A stretch of 64,000 bases of DNA from Pseudomonas nunensis (lineage in GTDB: Bacteria; Pseudomonadota; Gammaproteobacteria; Pseudomonadales; Pseudomonadaceae): contig NZ_CP101125.1 of assembly GCF_024296925.1 (NCBI RefSeq), positions 5,768,501-5,832,500 on the forward strand. The letters run 5' to 3'. Position 1 is the first letter of the stretch. Each line of letters begins with the position of its first letter. Below, one piece after another: positions 39,795 to 43,823 of the stretch. The notes below the pieces were generated by a model that was not told where the DNA came from, ran no database searches, and worked only from the letters and a program-made list of their open reading frames with translations. The translations under genes and the position numbers were made by a program.

Positions 39795-40880
39795 ATGACC
39801 ATTAGCGACGCACTGCATCGACTATTACTCGACAACCTGACCACCGCCACCATCCTGCTCGACGCCGAACTGCGCCTCGAGTACATGAACCCGGCGGCGG
39901 AAATGCTCCTGGCCATCAGCGGCCAGCGTAGCCATGGGCAGTTCATCAGTGAGTTGTTCACCGAATCTACTGAAGCCTTGAATTCCCTGCGCCAGGCCGT
40001 CGAGCAAGCGCACCCGTTCACCAAGCGCGAAGCGATGCTCACCGCCCTCACCGGCCAGACCCTGACCGTTGATTACGCGGTCACGCCGATCCTGAGCAAC
40101 GGCGACACGATGCTGCTGCTGGAAGTCCACCCCCGTGACCGCTTGCTGCGGATCACCAAGGAAGAGGCGCAGCTGTCGAAGCAGGAAACCAGCAAGATGC
40201 TGGTACGCGGCCTCGCTCATGAGATTAAGAATCCGCTGGGCGGGATTCGCGGCGCCGCGCAATTGCTCGCCCGCGAGCTGCCGGAAGAAAGCCTGCGCGA
40301 CTACACCAACGTGATCATCGAAGAAGCCGATCGTCTGCGAAACCTCGTGGACCGGATGCTCGGCTCGAACAAACTGCCTTCTCTGGCCATGTGCAATATC
40401 CACGAAGTGCTGGAGCGGGTCAGTCAGTTGGTTGAGGCCGAAAGCCAGGGCTGCATCACCTTGGTGCGCGACTACGACCCGAGCATTCCCGACGTGTTGA
40501 TCGATCGCGAACAGATGATCCAGGCCGTGCTGAACATCGTGCGCAACGCGATGCAGGCCATCAGCAGCCAGAACGAGCTGCGCCTGGGCCGCATCAGTTT
40601 GCGCACCCGCGCCATGCGCCAGTTCACCATCGGCCACGTGCGCCATCGCCTGGTGACCAAGATCGAGATCATCGACAACGGTCCGGGCATTCCTGCGGAT
40701 TTGCAGGAAACCATCTTCTTTCCAATGGTCAGTGGCCGCCCGGACGGTACCGGGCTGGGCTTGGCCATTACCCAGAACATCATCAGCCAGCACCAGGGCT
40801 TGATCGAGTGTGACAGCCACCCAGGCCACACCACTTTCTCGATCTTTCTGCCACTGGAACAAGGAGCCACATCGACATGA
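39795..40880 (+). CDS. ntrB: Nitrogen sensor kinase NtrB (NRII)
   Basis: From the ATG at 39795 (AGAGGT upstream) the product is 361 residues: an N-terminal PAS domain, the phosphorylated His142 in RGLAHEIKNPLGG, the N-box IVRNAMQAIS and the G-boxes IDNGPGIP and GTGLGLAI. It is cytoplasmic, with no membrane segment. It phosphorylates NtrC under nitrogen limitation and is switched to phosphatase by PII. A longer frame back to 39474 is not homologous. It overlaps ntrC by four bases. Confidence 0.96.
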   Translation: MTISDALHRLLLDNLTTATILLDAELRLEYMNPAAEMLLAISGQRSHGQFISELFTESTEALNSLRQAVEQAHPFTKREAMLTALTGQTLTVDYAVTPILSNGDTMLLLEVHPRDRLLRITKEEAQLSKQETSKMLVRGLAHEIKNPLGGIRGAAQLLARELPEESLRDYTNVIIEEADRLRNLVDRMLGSNKLPSLAMCNIHEVLERVSQLVEAESQGCITLVRDYDPSIPDVLIDREQMIQAVLNIVRNAMQAISSQNELRLGRISLRTRAMRQFTIGHVRHRLVTKIEIIDNGPGIPADLQETIFFPMVSGRPDGTGLGLAITQNIISQHQGLIECDSHPGHTTFSIFLPLEQGATST

Positions 40881-42313
40881 GCCGTAGTGAAACCGTGTGG
40901 ATCGTCGATGACGACCGTTCTATCCGTTGGGTCCTGGAAAAAGCCTTGCAGCAAGAAGGCATGACCACGCAAAGCTTCGACAGCGCCGATGGCGTGATGA
41001 GCCGCCTGGCGCGCCAGCAGCCGGACGTGATCATCTCCGACATCCGCATGCCGGGTGCCAGCGGCCTGGACCTTTTGGCGCGGATTCGCGAACAACACCC
41101 ACGGCTGCCGGTCATCATCATGACTGCCCACTCGGACCTGGACAGCGCTGTCGCCTCCTACCAGGGCGGCGCGTTCGAATACCTGCCCAAGCCGTTCGAT
41201 GTCGACGAAGCGGTCTCCCTGGTCAAGCGCGCCAACCAGCACGCCCAGGAACAGCAAGGCCTGGAAGTCCCGGTCGCCTTGACTCGCACCCCGGAAATCA
41301 TCGGTGAAGCGCCGGCGATGCAGGAAGTGTTTCGCGCCATCGGGCGCTTGAGCCACTCCAACATCACCGTGCTGATCAACGGCGAATCCGGCACCGGTAA
41401 AGAACTGGTGGCCCACGCCCTGCACCGCCACAGCCCACGCGCGGCCTCGCCGTTCATTGCGTTGAACATGGCGGCGATCCCGAAAGACCTGATGGAATCC
41501 GAGCTCTTCGGCCACGAAAAAGGCGCGTTCACTGGCGCGGCCAACCTGCGTCGCGGGCGCTTTGAACAGGCTGACGGCGGCACGTTGTTCCTCGATGAAA
41601 TCGGCGACATGCCGGCGGACACCCAGACCCGTTTGCTGCGGGTATTGGCCGATGGCGAGTTCTATCGCGTCGGTGGTCATACACCGGTGAAGGTCGATGT
41701 GCGCATCATCGCCGCGACCCACCAGAATCTGGAAACTCTGGTGCACGCCGGGAAATTCCGTGAGGACTTGTTCCACCGCCTCAACGTGATCCGCATCCAC
41801 ATTCCACGGCTGTCGGACCGTCGCGAAGACATCCCGACCCTGGCCAAGCACTTCCTCAGCCGCGCCGCGCAAGAACTGGCGGTGGAACCGAAGCTGCTGA
41901 AAAGCGAAACCGAGGAATACCTGAAGAACCTGCCGTGGGGCGGCAACGTGCGTCAGCTGGAGAACACCTGCCGCTGGATCACGGTGATGGCTTCGGGTCG
42001 CGAAGTGCACATCAGTGACTTGCCGCCGGAGCTGCTGAACCTGCCGCAGGATTCGGCGCCGGTGACCAACTGGGAGCAAGCGCTGCGCCAGTGGGCTGAT
42101 CAGGCGTTGGCTCGTGGTCAGTCGAGCCTGCTCGACAGCGCGGTGCCGGCGTTCGAGCGGATCATGATCGAAACCGCCCTCAAACACACCGCCGGCCGCC
42201 GTCGCGATGCAGCGGTTTTGCTGGGCTGGGGGCGTAATACCCTGACGCGCAAGATCAAGGAATTGGGGATGAAGGTCGATGGTGGGGATGATGATGAGGG
42301 GGAAGAGGGTTAA
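40877..42313 (+). CDS. ntrC: Nitrogen response regulator NtrC (NRI)
   Basis: A 478-residue sigma54 activator: receiver domain with phospho-acceptor Asp55 (IISDIRMPG), AAA+ domain with Walker A GESGTGKE at 169-176, the sigma54-contact loop GAFTGA, Walker B GGTLFLDEIGD, and a C-terminal Fis-type helix-turn-helix (RRRDAAVLLGWGRNTLTRKI). It should activate glnA, ntrBC itself and the NrsZ-like RNA gene downstream, all of which carry sigma54 elements here. Confidence 0.97.
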   Translation: MSRSETVWIVDDDRSIRWVLEKALQQEGMTTQSFDSADGVMSRLARQQPDVIISDIRMPGASGLDLLARIREQHPRLPVIIMTAHSDLDSAVASYQGGAFEYLPKPFDVDEAVSLVKRANQHAQEQQGLEVPVALTRTPEIIGEAPAMQEVFRAIGRLSHSNITVLINGESGTGKELVAHALHRHSPRAASPFIALNMAAIPKDLMESELFGHEKGAFTGAANLRRGRFEQADGGTLFLDEIGDMPADTQTRLLRVLADGEFYRVGGHTPVKVDVRIIAATHQNLETLVHAGKFREDLFHRLNVIRIHIPRLSDRREDIPTLAKHFLSRAAQELAVEPKLLKSETEEYLKNLPWGGNVRQLENTCRWITVMASGREVHISDLPPELLNLPQDSAPVTNWEQALRQWADQALARGQSSLLDSAVPAFERIMIETALKHTAGRRRDAAVLLGWGRNTLTRKIKELGMKVDGGDDDEGEEG

Positions 42314-42347: not shown

Positions 42348-42505
42348 ATCGCGAGCAAGCTCGCTCCCACAGGGATTTTTGGTGGTTTCACAATCGGGTG
42401 AACACTATCGAACCCTGTGGGAGCGGGCTTGCTCGCGAAGGGGCCGGCACATCCAACATCGATATCGCTTGAAACACCGCCTTCGCGAGCAAGCCCGCTC
42501 CCACA
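42348..42505. repeat. Triple REP cluster, family 1
   Basis: Three REP copies: one inverted copy with a changed base (GAGCAAGCTCGCTCCCACA), then a standard inverted pair (tail at 42505). It lies right after the ntrC stop and before the NrsZ-like RNA gene. Between 42314 and 42928 there is no protein gene. Confidence 0.92.
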
Positions 42506-42616
42506 TTTAAAGCTTCATGCACCGCACCAATGCACGATGACCCGCAATCGCGCACAGCAGCTCTTCTGAAATCTCGTCCTGAAACGCAAAAAATCTCAAC
42601 CTGCACAAACACAAAA

Positions 42617-42676: not shown

Positions 42677-42694
42677 CTGGCACGCCCCCTGCAG
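42677..42694 (+). promoter_or_regulatory. Sigma54 promoter of the NrsZ-like RNA
   Basis: CTGGCACGCCCCCTGCAG matches the -24 box TGGCACG perfectly and has GC at the exact -12 distance (GG-N10-GC). Transcription is expected near 42704. Upstream, TGCACCGCACCAATGCAC at 42518-42535 contains NtrC-like half-sites about 180 bp before the start. Confidence 0.82.
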
Positions 42695-42703
42695 TAGTCC
42701 TTT

Positions 42704-42931
42704 CAGTGATTCAGTTCACTACCCGGTTTCGGGGACCTTGGTACAGGCAGGCCGGGGATTCCCCTCTTTACATCGGGCTCACACCGCCAACGCGACGAGC
42801 CCAACCCGTTTTGGGGCCCTTGATACAGGCAGGTCAGGGGTTCCTTCTTTACACCGGGACTTGCACGCAATGCGTAAGTCCCTGCCGTTTTGGGAACCTT
42901 GGTACAGGCAGGCCGGGGATTCCCTCTTTTA
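42704..42931 (+). ncRNA. nrsZ: NrsZ-type nitrogen-regulated small RNA
   Basis: Downstream of ntrC and behind a sigma54 promoter lies a non-coding stretch with three repeats. Each folds into an inner stem CCUUGG/CCGGGG (42736-42757, 42897-42918) or CCUUGA/UCAGGG (42818-42839) closing the same loop UACAGGCAGG, with an outer GGGG-type stem. The middle copy carries compensatory changes, evidence of selection on structure. Two linker hairpins lie between (GGGCTC/GAGCCC at 42775-42802; GGGACTT...AAGTCCC at 42856-42882). The third repeat is followed by CTCTTTTATT and can serve as terminator. Position and layout match NrsZ of P. aeruginosa, an NtrBC/sigma54-dependent RNA that is processed and affects rhamnolipid synthesis and swarming. 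Ends are predicted. Confidence 0.85.
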
Positions 42932-43324
42932 TTGCTCCCGGAGATGGATCTCCAGCCGCCAGCGATCATCGACCTCACTACCGGCCCACTCACCTTGCAG
43001 TGGCCGGGCCGCCACCACCGTCAGCAACACCCCCCCATCACTCAAACGCACGCGCCAGTTCACGTCTTTGCCGTTGACCTTGAGCTGGCCTTTCTGCGCC
43101 TTGCCTTCGGCCTCGAACAACAACGCGACGCTGCCATCCACCACCTCGCCATGAGTCTTGGGTTCGTTGTTGAACCACACCACCAGCCCGTCGTCGGTGA
43201 CCTCGACCTGCTGCAGTTCAGTGGGGTCGGGCGTGGTCAGGCGACCGATCATCAGCCCCACCATCAGCCCGACAATCGCCAGCGATCCCATCACTCGCGG
43301 GAATAGTTTCGAACGGTTGTCCAC
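42929..43324 (-). CDS. Conserved membrane-anchored hypothetical protein
   Basis: The minus-strand frame encodes an N-terminal hydrophobic anchor (VMGSLAIVGLMVGLMIG) followed by a small beta-rich domain (DDGLVVWFNNEPKTHGEVV, then VALLFEAEG) probably in the periplasm. I start it at GTG 43324 (131 residues); the ATG at 43369 overlaps the trmL start codon on the other strand. An internal ATG at 43291 is also possible. It occupies the place of PA5126 in P. aeruginosa. Function unknown. Its stop meets the 3' end of the NrsZ-like RNA. Confidence 0.75.
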   Translation of the reverse strand: MDNRSKLFPRVMGSLAIVGLMVGLMIGRLTTPDPTELQQVEVTDDGLVVWFNNEPKTHGEVVDGSVALLFEAEGKAQKGQLKVNGKDVNWRVRLSDGGVLLTVVAARPLQGEWAGSEVDDRWRLEIHLREQ

Positions 43325-43367
43325 GGGCGGCGTAGAATGCCGCTCATCTTTACCTTCGGAGCCGTGC

Positions 43368-43823
43368 ATGTTTCACGTCATCCTCTTCCAACCAGAAATT
43401 CCGCCGAATACCGGCAACGTTATCAGGCTGTGCGCCAACAGTGGCTGCCACCTGCATTTGATCGAACCGCTGGGCTTCGAGATGGACGACAAGCGCCTGC
43501 GCCGGGCCGGCCTCGATTACCACGAGTACGCCACCCTGCAACGCCACGCCGACCTGGCGAGTTGCCTGGAAAGCCTCGGTCATCCACGGCTGTTCGCGTT
43601 CACCACCAAGGGCTCGCGGCCGTTTCACGATGCCAGCTTCGCCGAGGGCGACGCCTTCCTGTTCGGCCCGGAAAGCCGTGGCTTGCCCGCCGAAGTGCTC
43701 GATGCACTCCCCGGCGAACAACGCCTGCGCCTGCCGATGCGCGAAGGCTGCCGCAGCCTGAACCTGTCGAACACCGTGGCGGTTGCCGTGTACGAAGGCT
43801 GGCGCCAACTCGGTTTCAAGTAA
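43368..43823 (+). CDS. trmL: tRNA (cytidine/uridine-34 2'-O)-methyltransferase
   Basis: From the ATG at 43368 a 151-residue SPOUT methyltransferase with the knot motifs EIPPNTGNVIRLCANSG, FLFGPESRGLP and the C-terminal CRSLNLSNTVAVAVYE. TrmL methylates the wobble base of tRNA-Leu isoacceptors. A longer frame from 43158 overlaps the divergent gene and is not used. Start is supported by the conserved MFHVILFQPEIP N-terminus. Confidence 0.95.
   Translation: MFHVILFQPEIPPNTGNVIRLCANSGCHLHLIEPLGFEMDDKRLRRAGLDYHEYATLQRHADLASCLESLGHPRLFAFTTKGSRPFHDASFAEGDAFLFGPESRGLPAEVLDALPGEQRLRLPMREGCRSLNLSNTVAVAVYEGWRQLGFK

Follow-up and report, generated by a model that had tools for sequence, protein, structure and literature searches.

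The small RNA NrsZ of Pseudomonas is reportedly processed into three similar short modules, a description ascribed to Wenner et al. 2014. Published passages on P. aeruginosa give NrsZ as a transcript of approximately 226 nt, the expression of which depends on NtrB/C and RpoN (PMC8395346, PMC9308961, PMC6321483). It is induced by nitrogen limitation in strain PAO1, products of approximately 40 and 140 nt are processed from a longer RNA, and the first 60 nt, with the ACAGGCAG motif, are functional and sufficient, acting on rhlA (PMC8395346, PMC9308961). In the part of an Hfq CLIP-seq study that concerns it, NrsZ is among the sRNAs enriched, although not significantly, under the planktonic condition (PMC6890931).

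For a locus of Pseudomonas nunensis, processing into equivalent units had been proposed from the DNA alone; the idea is sound and already published for P. aeruginosa (PMC8395346, PMC9308961). Much of the remaining interpretation in that original prediction has likewise been published for P. aeruginosa, and what we add is the comparison at family level. The part worth following is the family picture, in which an RNA of one unit grows into arrays whose loop stays nearly the same. The passages available from the literature on NrsZ and on NtrC sRNAs gave no account of a variable unit number, and the primary paper may mention other numbers of units.

The NrsZ locus of Pseudomonas nunensis

The window (the whole stretch of 64,000 nt that was analysed) matches the Rfam NrsZ family RF02695 at 42720-42941 on the + strand. 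The covariance-model match scores 142 bits (E 1.3e-35, cut-off 76.9), spans the full model (positions 1-236), and is the single RF02695 locus found by a genome-wide search of the 7.33-Mb genome. This match identifies the element, first put forward as an NrsZ-like RNA, as NrsZ, the small RNA already known from nitrogen limitation in Pseudomonas, in its ordinary three-unit form. It is placed between ntrC upstream and a convergent 146-aa ORF downstream, with the following features:

40877 to 42313, + strand: ntrC, NtrC-type response regulator (478-aa ORF; Response_reg, Sigma54_activat and Fis-type HTH_8 domains)
42518 to 42534, + strand: candidate NtrC enhancer site TGCACCGCACCAATGCA (up to 3 mismatches to TGCACC-N5-GGTGCA)
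42678 to 42693, + strand: putative sigma54 -24/-12 promoter TGGCACG-CCCCC-TGCA (TGGCACGCCCCCTGCA), a motif reading
42704 to 42726, + strand: short 5' hairpin (-4.9 kcal/mol, z -1.95, 8/200 shuffles as good)
42726 to 42770, + strand: module 1 (loop ACAGGCAG at 42743-42750; tail UCUUUA)
42770 to 42810, + strand: linker hairpin 1, GGGCUC/GAGCCC (z -2.68, 1/200 shuffles as good)
42808 to 42852, + strand: module 2 (12 uninterrupted pairs; loop 42825-42832; A-U for G-C near the loop; U-rich tail UUCUUUAC; z -2.97, 0/200 shuffles as good)
42852 to 42889, + strand: linker hairpin 2, GGGACUUGC/GUAAGUCCC (z -2.93, 2/200 shuffles as good)
42887 to 42933, + strand: module 3 (loop 42904-42911; tail UCUUUUAUU, a longer U-tail; serves as terminator)
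42929 to 43369, - strand: convergent 146-aa ORF (stop codon within the U-tail of module 3; no Pfam match)

A relative of the 146-aa ORF was present at 145 of 196 fetched loci (several loci per genome) and is a frequent right-hand neighbour. Between ntrC and the NrsZ promoter, at 42349-42505, there are two pairs of inverted repeats of 26 nt; complementarity is 100% in one pair and 96% in the other, and the arms are 38 nt apart. We take these to resemble the REP or REPIN elements of Pseudomonas.

The modules are direct repeats of 45 nt (42726-42770, 42808-42852 and 42887-42931), the second and third being 73% and 89% alike to the first, and TACAGGCAGG occurs in exact form at only three places in the window, 42742, 42824 and 42903 (+ strand). 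Each hairpin presents the 8-nt loop ACAGGCAG, closed by a U-G wobble. The loop had been described as invariant and 10 nt long; the invariance holds, and the size is corrected to 8 nt plus the closing U-G pair. The replacement of G-C by A-U next to the closing pair of the middle copy, and of U-G by U-A further down, were both seen as predicted. Both linker hairpins fold, and the repeated module exposes one and the same loop three times, again as had been claimed. Folded as a whole, the RNA (42703-42933) reaches -94.3 kcal/mol (z -3.25, 2/200 shuffles as good). Module 1 alone is unremarkable in folding energy (z -1.51, 18/200 shuffles as good), and the energy of a single copy is therefore weak evidence; it is the family comparison that carries the case.

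Predicted promoter and NtrC control

The sigma54 site of the original prediction was recovered as a sequence motif, the -24/-12 box at 42678-42693, and the spacing of this box would put the start of NrsZ near 42704, where the earlier reader had also placed it. The enhancer search used TGCACC-N5-GGTGCA, which we assume to be the NtrC site consensus. For comparison, 89 loci were read, a non-random sample made up of the best-scoring loci from RF02695 searches of the genus and family together with chosen low scorers. A sigma54 box scoring 8 or 9 of 10 (GG and GC required) is found in 89/89 of these, and an NtrC-type site lies no more than 250 nt upstream of the box in 80/89, against 2/89 for the reversed consensus. 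The distance from box start to first loop is 51 or 52 nt in 62/89 loci and 65 nt in 13/89, including the window locus. From these motifs, an RpoN promoter and control by NtrC are predicted for NrsZ here.

Conservation of the loop and stem

The 89 loci yielded 256 modules, gathered by the exact ACAGGCAG string, and 70 divergent single modules were aligned (alignment A1). U and G flank the loop in 256/256 of the gathered units (TACAGGCAGG). Since these units were selected by the string itself, constancy was tested with a 3-mismatch scan of the same loci, which required a stem of six pairs and may miss weak modules; it returned ten stretches, three of which were judged to be modules (L084, L086 and L087), all with AGGCAG. 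In distant genera the first bases of the loop change, e.g. to TCAGGCAG in six g5 loci, and AGGCAG is kept in the credible loci read by eye. In the weak relative L195 the loop is replaced by ACAAGCAG, and the match at L196 looks like chance. The closing pair is U-G in 70/70 aligned units. Because it is fixed when other pairs would serve the helix equally, we infer that both of its bases are read as sequence.

In A1, 93.6% of helix cells are paired, compared to 89.6% after shuffling, double-sided change occurs in 7/11 pairs, and covariation is 0.310 versus 0.225. No shuffle out of 500 reaches any of the five measures, a test in which related sequences can exceed shuffles without structure, and all measures fall when the partner is shifted by 1 to 3 columns. 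The linker hairpins are freer to vary in sequence: between loops less than 120 nt apart there are 156 unique linkers, all but one of which (155) folded. An outer helix of at least 5 pairs is formed by 113, with 48 distinct complementary arm pairs, a descriptive count as folding itself selects paired arms. The median z over 157 unique linkers is -2.56 against mononucleotide shuffles. Across these relatives the loop thus appears almost constant, and stems and linkers vary with pairing kept. This agrees with the earlier argument that structure is selected, the A1 covariation (0/500 shuffles) and the changing linker arms both pointing that way. Had relatives lost the pattern of loop and stem, this would have spoken against an NrsZ-like RNA; such a loss was looked for, and the pattern is kept across genus and family.

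Terminator role of the last unit

A run of at least four T follows the hairpin in 68/72 last units, 17/17 single units and 48/167 inner units. Based on these T-runs, a single unit can be read as promoter-proximal hairpin and terminator in one, with the last unit taking the terminator part in longer arrays. The original prediction that the last repeat doubles as a terminator is borne out by its U-tail and by this comparison of tails, but not by a simple terminator scan, which flags the middle hairpin (42808-42852) and not the last. Partial termination at module 2 (42808-42852) is possible, this being the only hairpin of the three that was flagged.

Were each internal hairpin, with its short U-tail, a weak terminator, the array would be an attenuation device, and unit number would fix how much short transcript is made relative to long, not how many units are processed. 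We think this improbable. The flagged middle hairpin and the 48/167 inner tails with a run of at least four T are in its favour, whereas 119/167 inner tails have no run of four T, and the P. aeruginosa species of approximately 40 and 140 nt are described as processed from a longer RNA (PMC8395346, PMC9308961).

Distribution and number of units

RF02695 matches were obtained in 290/298 genomes of the genus, 0/14 controls and 127/198 genomes of a family sample. The curated cut-off is reached by 202 genus genomes, and 88 of the 290 matched genomes fall below it. Reading 21 of the below-cut-off loci (L041-L061) revealed one unit in 17 and two units in 4. Because the curated model spans three units, annotation can easily overlook short forms, which are picked up by a model of a single unit. 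Such a model (R1), a covariance model built from the A1 alignment, matches 290/298 genus genomes, which answers the call for a covariance check across Pseudomonas, as well as 162/198 genomes of the family sample (15/19 genera) and 19/341 of an order sample. Within the genus, one match is found in 79 genomes, two in 54, three in 116, four in 29, five in 6, six in 1, seven in 4 and eight in 1; these are genome-wide numbers, and placement in one array is known only for the 89 loci read. The single-unit form is hence the only one found in approximately a quarter of sampled genus genomes. R1 had no match in 8/298 genomes, and the complete genomes G037, G156, G272 and G297 also gave none in smaller runs. 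Matches outside the family were rejected as NrsZ: 4/341 order-sample genomes gave weak R1 hits (E 4e-4 to 6e-6), none with ntrC, the 146-aa ORF or trmL adjoining, and the stretches read, L160 and L163, do not resemble NrsZ.

NrsZ units also occur elsewhere on the chromosome. Neighbours were tallied for 164 genome-locus pairs (162 genomes, 192 loci; four chance loci omitted). The flank holds ntrC, the 146-aa ORF or a recurrent neighbour gene that we call trmL-like in 139 pairs, DUF6701 in 10 (L120, L121, L123, L124, L129, L150, L178, L179, L182, L194), dinB in 9 (L125, L127, L128, L131, L132, L146, L151, L180, L183) and none of these in 6; some weak matches in the 'other' neighbour class (L185, L188, L195, L196) may have arisen by chance. 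Pfam confirms DUF6701 at three loci and the polymerase domain of dinB at one. Two places in genome G310, L175 and L194, each hold a single unit, and a sigma54-like box is present at both.

Arrays in the 89 loci contain 1 to 7 units, the spacing of neighbouring units ranging from 58 to 199 nt and mostly lying between 78 and 87. Of the 20 arrays with at least four units, five contain an identical 48-nt unit pair, and in nine others the closest pair is 94-98% alike. Such near-identical pairs point to recent tandem duplication, mostly of inner units.

Likeness between units at the same position was compared in 18 of 37 three-unit loci (those numbered below L062), and is 0.874 for the first, 0.929 for the last and 0.792 for the middle unit. 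The better-kept first and last units are what would be expected if the units differ, with the first alone being regulatory and the others terminator and filler. That the first 60 nt suffice in P. aeruginosa also fits (PMC8395346, PMC9308961). However, the loop of the middle unit is equally constant, TACAGGCAGG being present in all 256 collected units, and most expanded arrays keep the loop in every copy, with the three variants in L084, L086 and L087. A division of labour of this kind is in our opinion rather unlikely.

The unit counts suggest that NrsZ at its smallest is a single hairpin-terminator, and that the three-unit form is just one of the sizes that an expandable array can take. We tentatively go a step further, to a possibility that we hold at somewhat under even chances: NrsZ may be an evolvable dosage array, in which a single NtrC/sigma54 promoter is followed by up to seven or eight tandem duplicates of the unit and unit number sets how many equivalent sRNAs arise per transcription event. 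The unit and its promoter motif would also sit at other chromosomal places, and a few genomes may hold two loci. The natural forms, from one unit to many, provide a series for asking why the loop is repeated, be it for dose, redundancy or multi-site binding.

Possible targets of the loop

The original prediction remarked that rhlA, the P. aeruginosa target, may be missing in fluorescent pseudomonads. Genome G414 is taken for P. aeruginosa because its NrsZ scores 259 bits and it carries rhlA-rhlB genes. Its RhlA has no credible relative in three stretches around the EryCIII-like (RhlB-like) glycosyltransferases of the window genome (best tblastn E 0.34). This fits a missing rhlA without proving it, and the remark gains indirect support only.

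In the rhlA leader of G414, UUGCCUGU at -33 to -26 can pair with the loop by seven Watson-Crick pairs and a possible G-U. The site is modest, as a 13-nt loop segment prefers the coding position +36, and among 500 shuffled leaders 6.8% are as good. A screen of 8 genomes for leaders of the form TGCCTGT-N0-25-RGGA-N4-10-ATG gave 96 matches versus 27 for the backwards pattern, a control that also destroys the order of the ribosome site. We read 91 of the 96, the remainder being one coding motif in four copies and a single additional place. One pair among them joins rhlA of G414 and a 43%-identical gene of G003, presumably phaG, the leader of which has two CTGCCTGT. A pilN-like pair (G012, G326) was discarded, its site being the coding end of an upstream ORF. 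Two further recurrences were likewise dismissed, one being a single site counted twice and the other a coding motif in a gene that we call TtcA-like.

As a target, phaG was also rejected: CTGCCTGT, TGCCTGT, CTGCCTG and CCTGCCT occur at -150 to +15 in 0/80 relatives (best 80 of 485). Among the same best 80 of 485 phaG-like leaders (L297-L376), 77 have GCCTACCTGTCA no more than 150 nt upstream of the start, often with AGGC-N4 before it. Within this box, CTACCTGT is one base off the loop complement (one C-A mismatch). Since AGGC-N4-GCCT is seen in many copies, we read the box as a DNA site, probably for a promoter or regulator; it may instead be an imperfect NrsZ site.

The loop complement CCTGCCTGTA occurs at 120 sites in 9 genomes versus 34 for the backwards pattern. 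NrsZ itself accounts for 27, and 91 of the remaining 93 contexts were analysed. The larger recurrent groups lie in gltB (8/9 genomes; L377, L391, L414, L416, L439, L453, L458, L468), nadB (6), ppsR-like (4) and nirB-like (3) genes, names that we assigned from protein motifs, and were excluded as a target pattern since they are TGC-CTG-TAY (Cys-Leu-Tyr) codons deep inside the genes. Two of these four coding groups are nitrogen genes, which we treat as coincidence. For gltB, a nitrogen-assimilation gene, coding explains the kept CCTGCCTGTA. Each of three smaller groups covers two genomes, and one of these (G012/G003) is again coding. Copies 48 and 76 nt before a transporter-like gene (G308, G414; name guessed) are C-L-Y codons ending an upstream ORF, and the pair L463 and L401 is a weak match. 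Only one leader case has no coding explanation: related acylase-like genes (L455, L466; name guessed) are preceded by CCTGCCTGTA at a distance of 21 nt in G326 and 117 nt in G145.

Searching translation start regions for the loop complement, as had been advised, thus gave no leader site that recurs in more than 2 of 8 or 9 genomes. Given this and the absence of the exact site from 80/80 phaG-like leaders, we find no support for loop conservation as the explanation of how NrsZ chooses its targets in fluorescent pseudomonads, as had been proposed. If the loop is the seed, the near-constant core AGGCAG predicts shared targets with CUGCCU-like sites, and these were not found outside P. aeruginosa.

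RsmY and RsmZ titrate RsmA, and the repeated identical loops of NrsZ could in the same manner be a sponge for a protein or another small RNA, with mRNA pairing secondary. Identical loops in variable number, and structure that is kept while sequence varies, fit a multi-site binder, as does the lack of a widely conserved mRNA leader site in our screens of 8 or 9 genomes. An RsmA-type GGA was looked for in the loops of the modules and is absent, all three being ACAGGCAG, and the single match in 79/298 genomes weakens the need for many sites. The first 60 nt, moreover, act on rhlA in P. aeruginosa (PMC8395346, PMC9308961). On balance we consider a sponge quite unlikely.

Proposed mechanism

With good confidence, we favour as the best explanation of the whole that NrsZ is a processed array of equivalent loop-exposing units built by unit duplication. 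Under nitrogen limitation, phosphorylated NtrC bound upstream would activate sigma54 polymerase at the promoter (42678-42693), giving a transcript of approximately 230 nt from about 42704 to about 42933. Three equivalent hairpins would form in this RNA, with a U-rich single strand after each (UCUUUA, UUCUUUAC and UCUUUUAUU, respectively) and the GC-rich linker hairpins between them, and the last hairpin would terminate transcription. Cleavage in the U-rich single strands, for which RNase E is a guess, would free units of approximately 40 nt, each displaying ACAGGCAG closed by U-G and able to pair with mRNA sites such as UGCCUGU near the ribosome-binding site. In the family, the basic unit would be one hairpin-terminator, and tandem duplication would lead to longer arrays, one promoter then yielding one to approximately eight equivalent units. 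Family membership, promoter and enhancer motifs, structure, unit number and loop conservation can be read from the sequences. The cleavage sites, the equal activity of units, the role of the loop as seed and all that concerns targets in P. nunensis are what we infer.

Comparison with known systems

RsmY, RsmZ and CrcZ are Pseudomonas sRNAs with repeated binding motifs under two-component control, which titrate proteins via GGA or A-rich motifs. The NrsZ loop is unlike these, having neither GGA nor an A-rich motif. Enterobacteriaceae have an sRNA from the 3'UTR of glnA, which we take to be GlnZ. Nitrogen limitation and the glnA-ntrBC region are what it has in common with NrsZ; unlike NrsZ, it is released from an mRNA, and the published passage on it mentions no repeated unit (PMC9731577).

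Compared with NrsZ of P. aeruginosa, the stem sequences differ, the distance from box to loop is 65 nt here and 51 in L062 (a P. aeruginosa-like genome), and a search next to the RhlB-like glycosyltransferases of the window genome gave no rhlA. The two are alike in their plan: NrsZ of P. aeruginosa PAO1 (RF02695), which lies between ntrC and PA5126, shares with the P. nunensis locus three hairpins, two linker hairpins, ACAGGCAG, the sigma54 box and the upstream ntrC.
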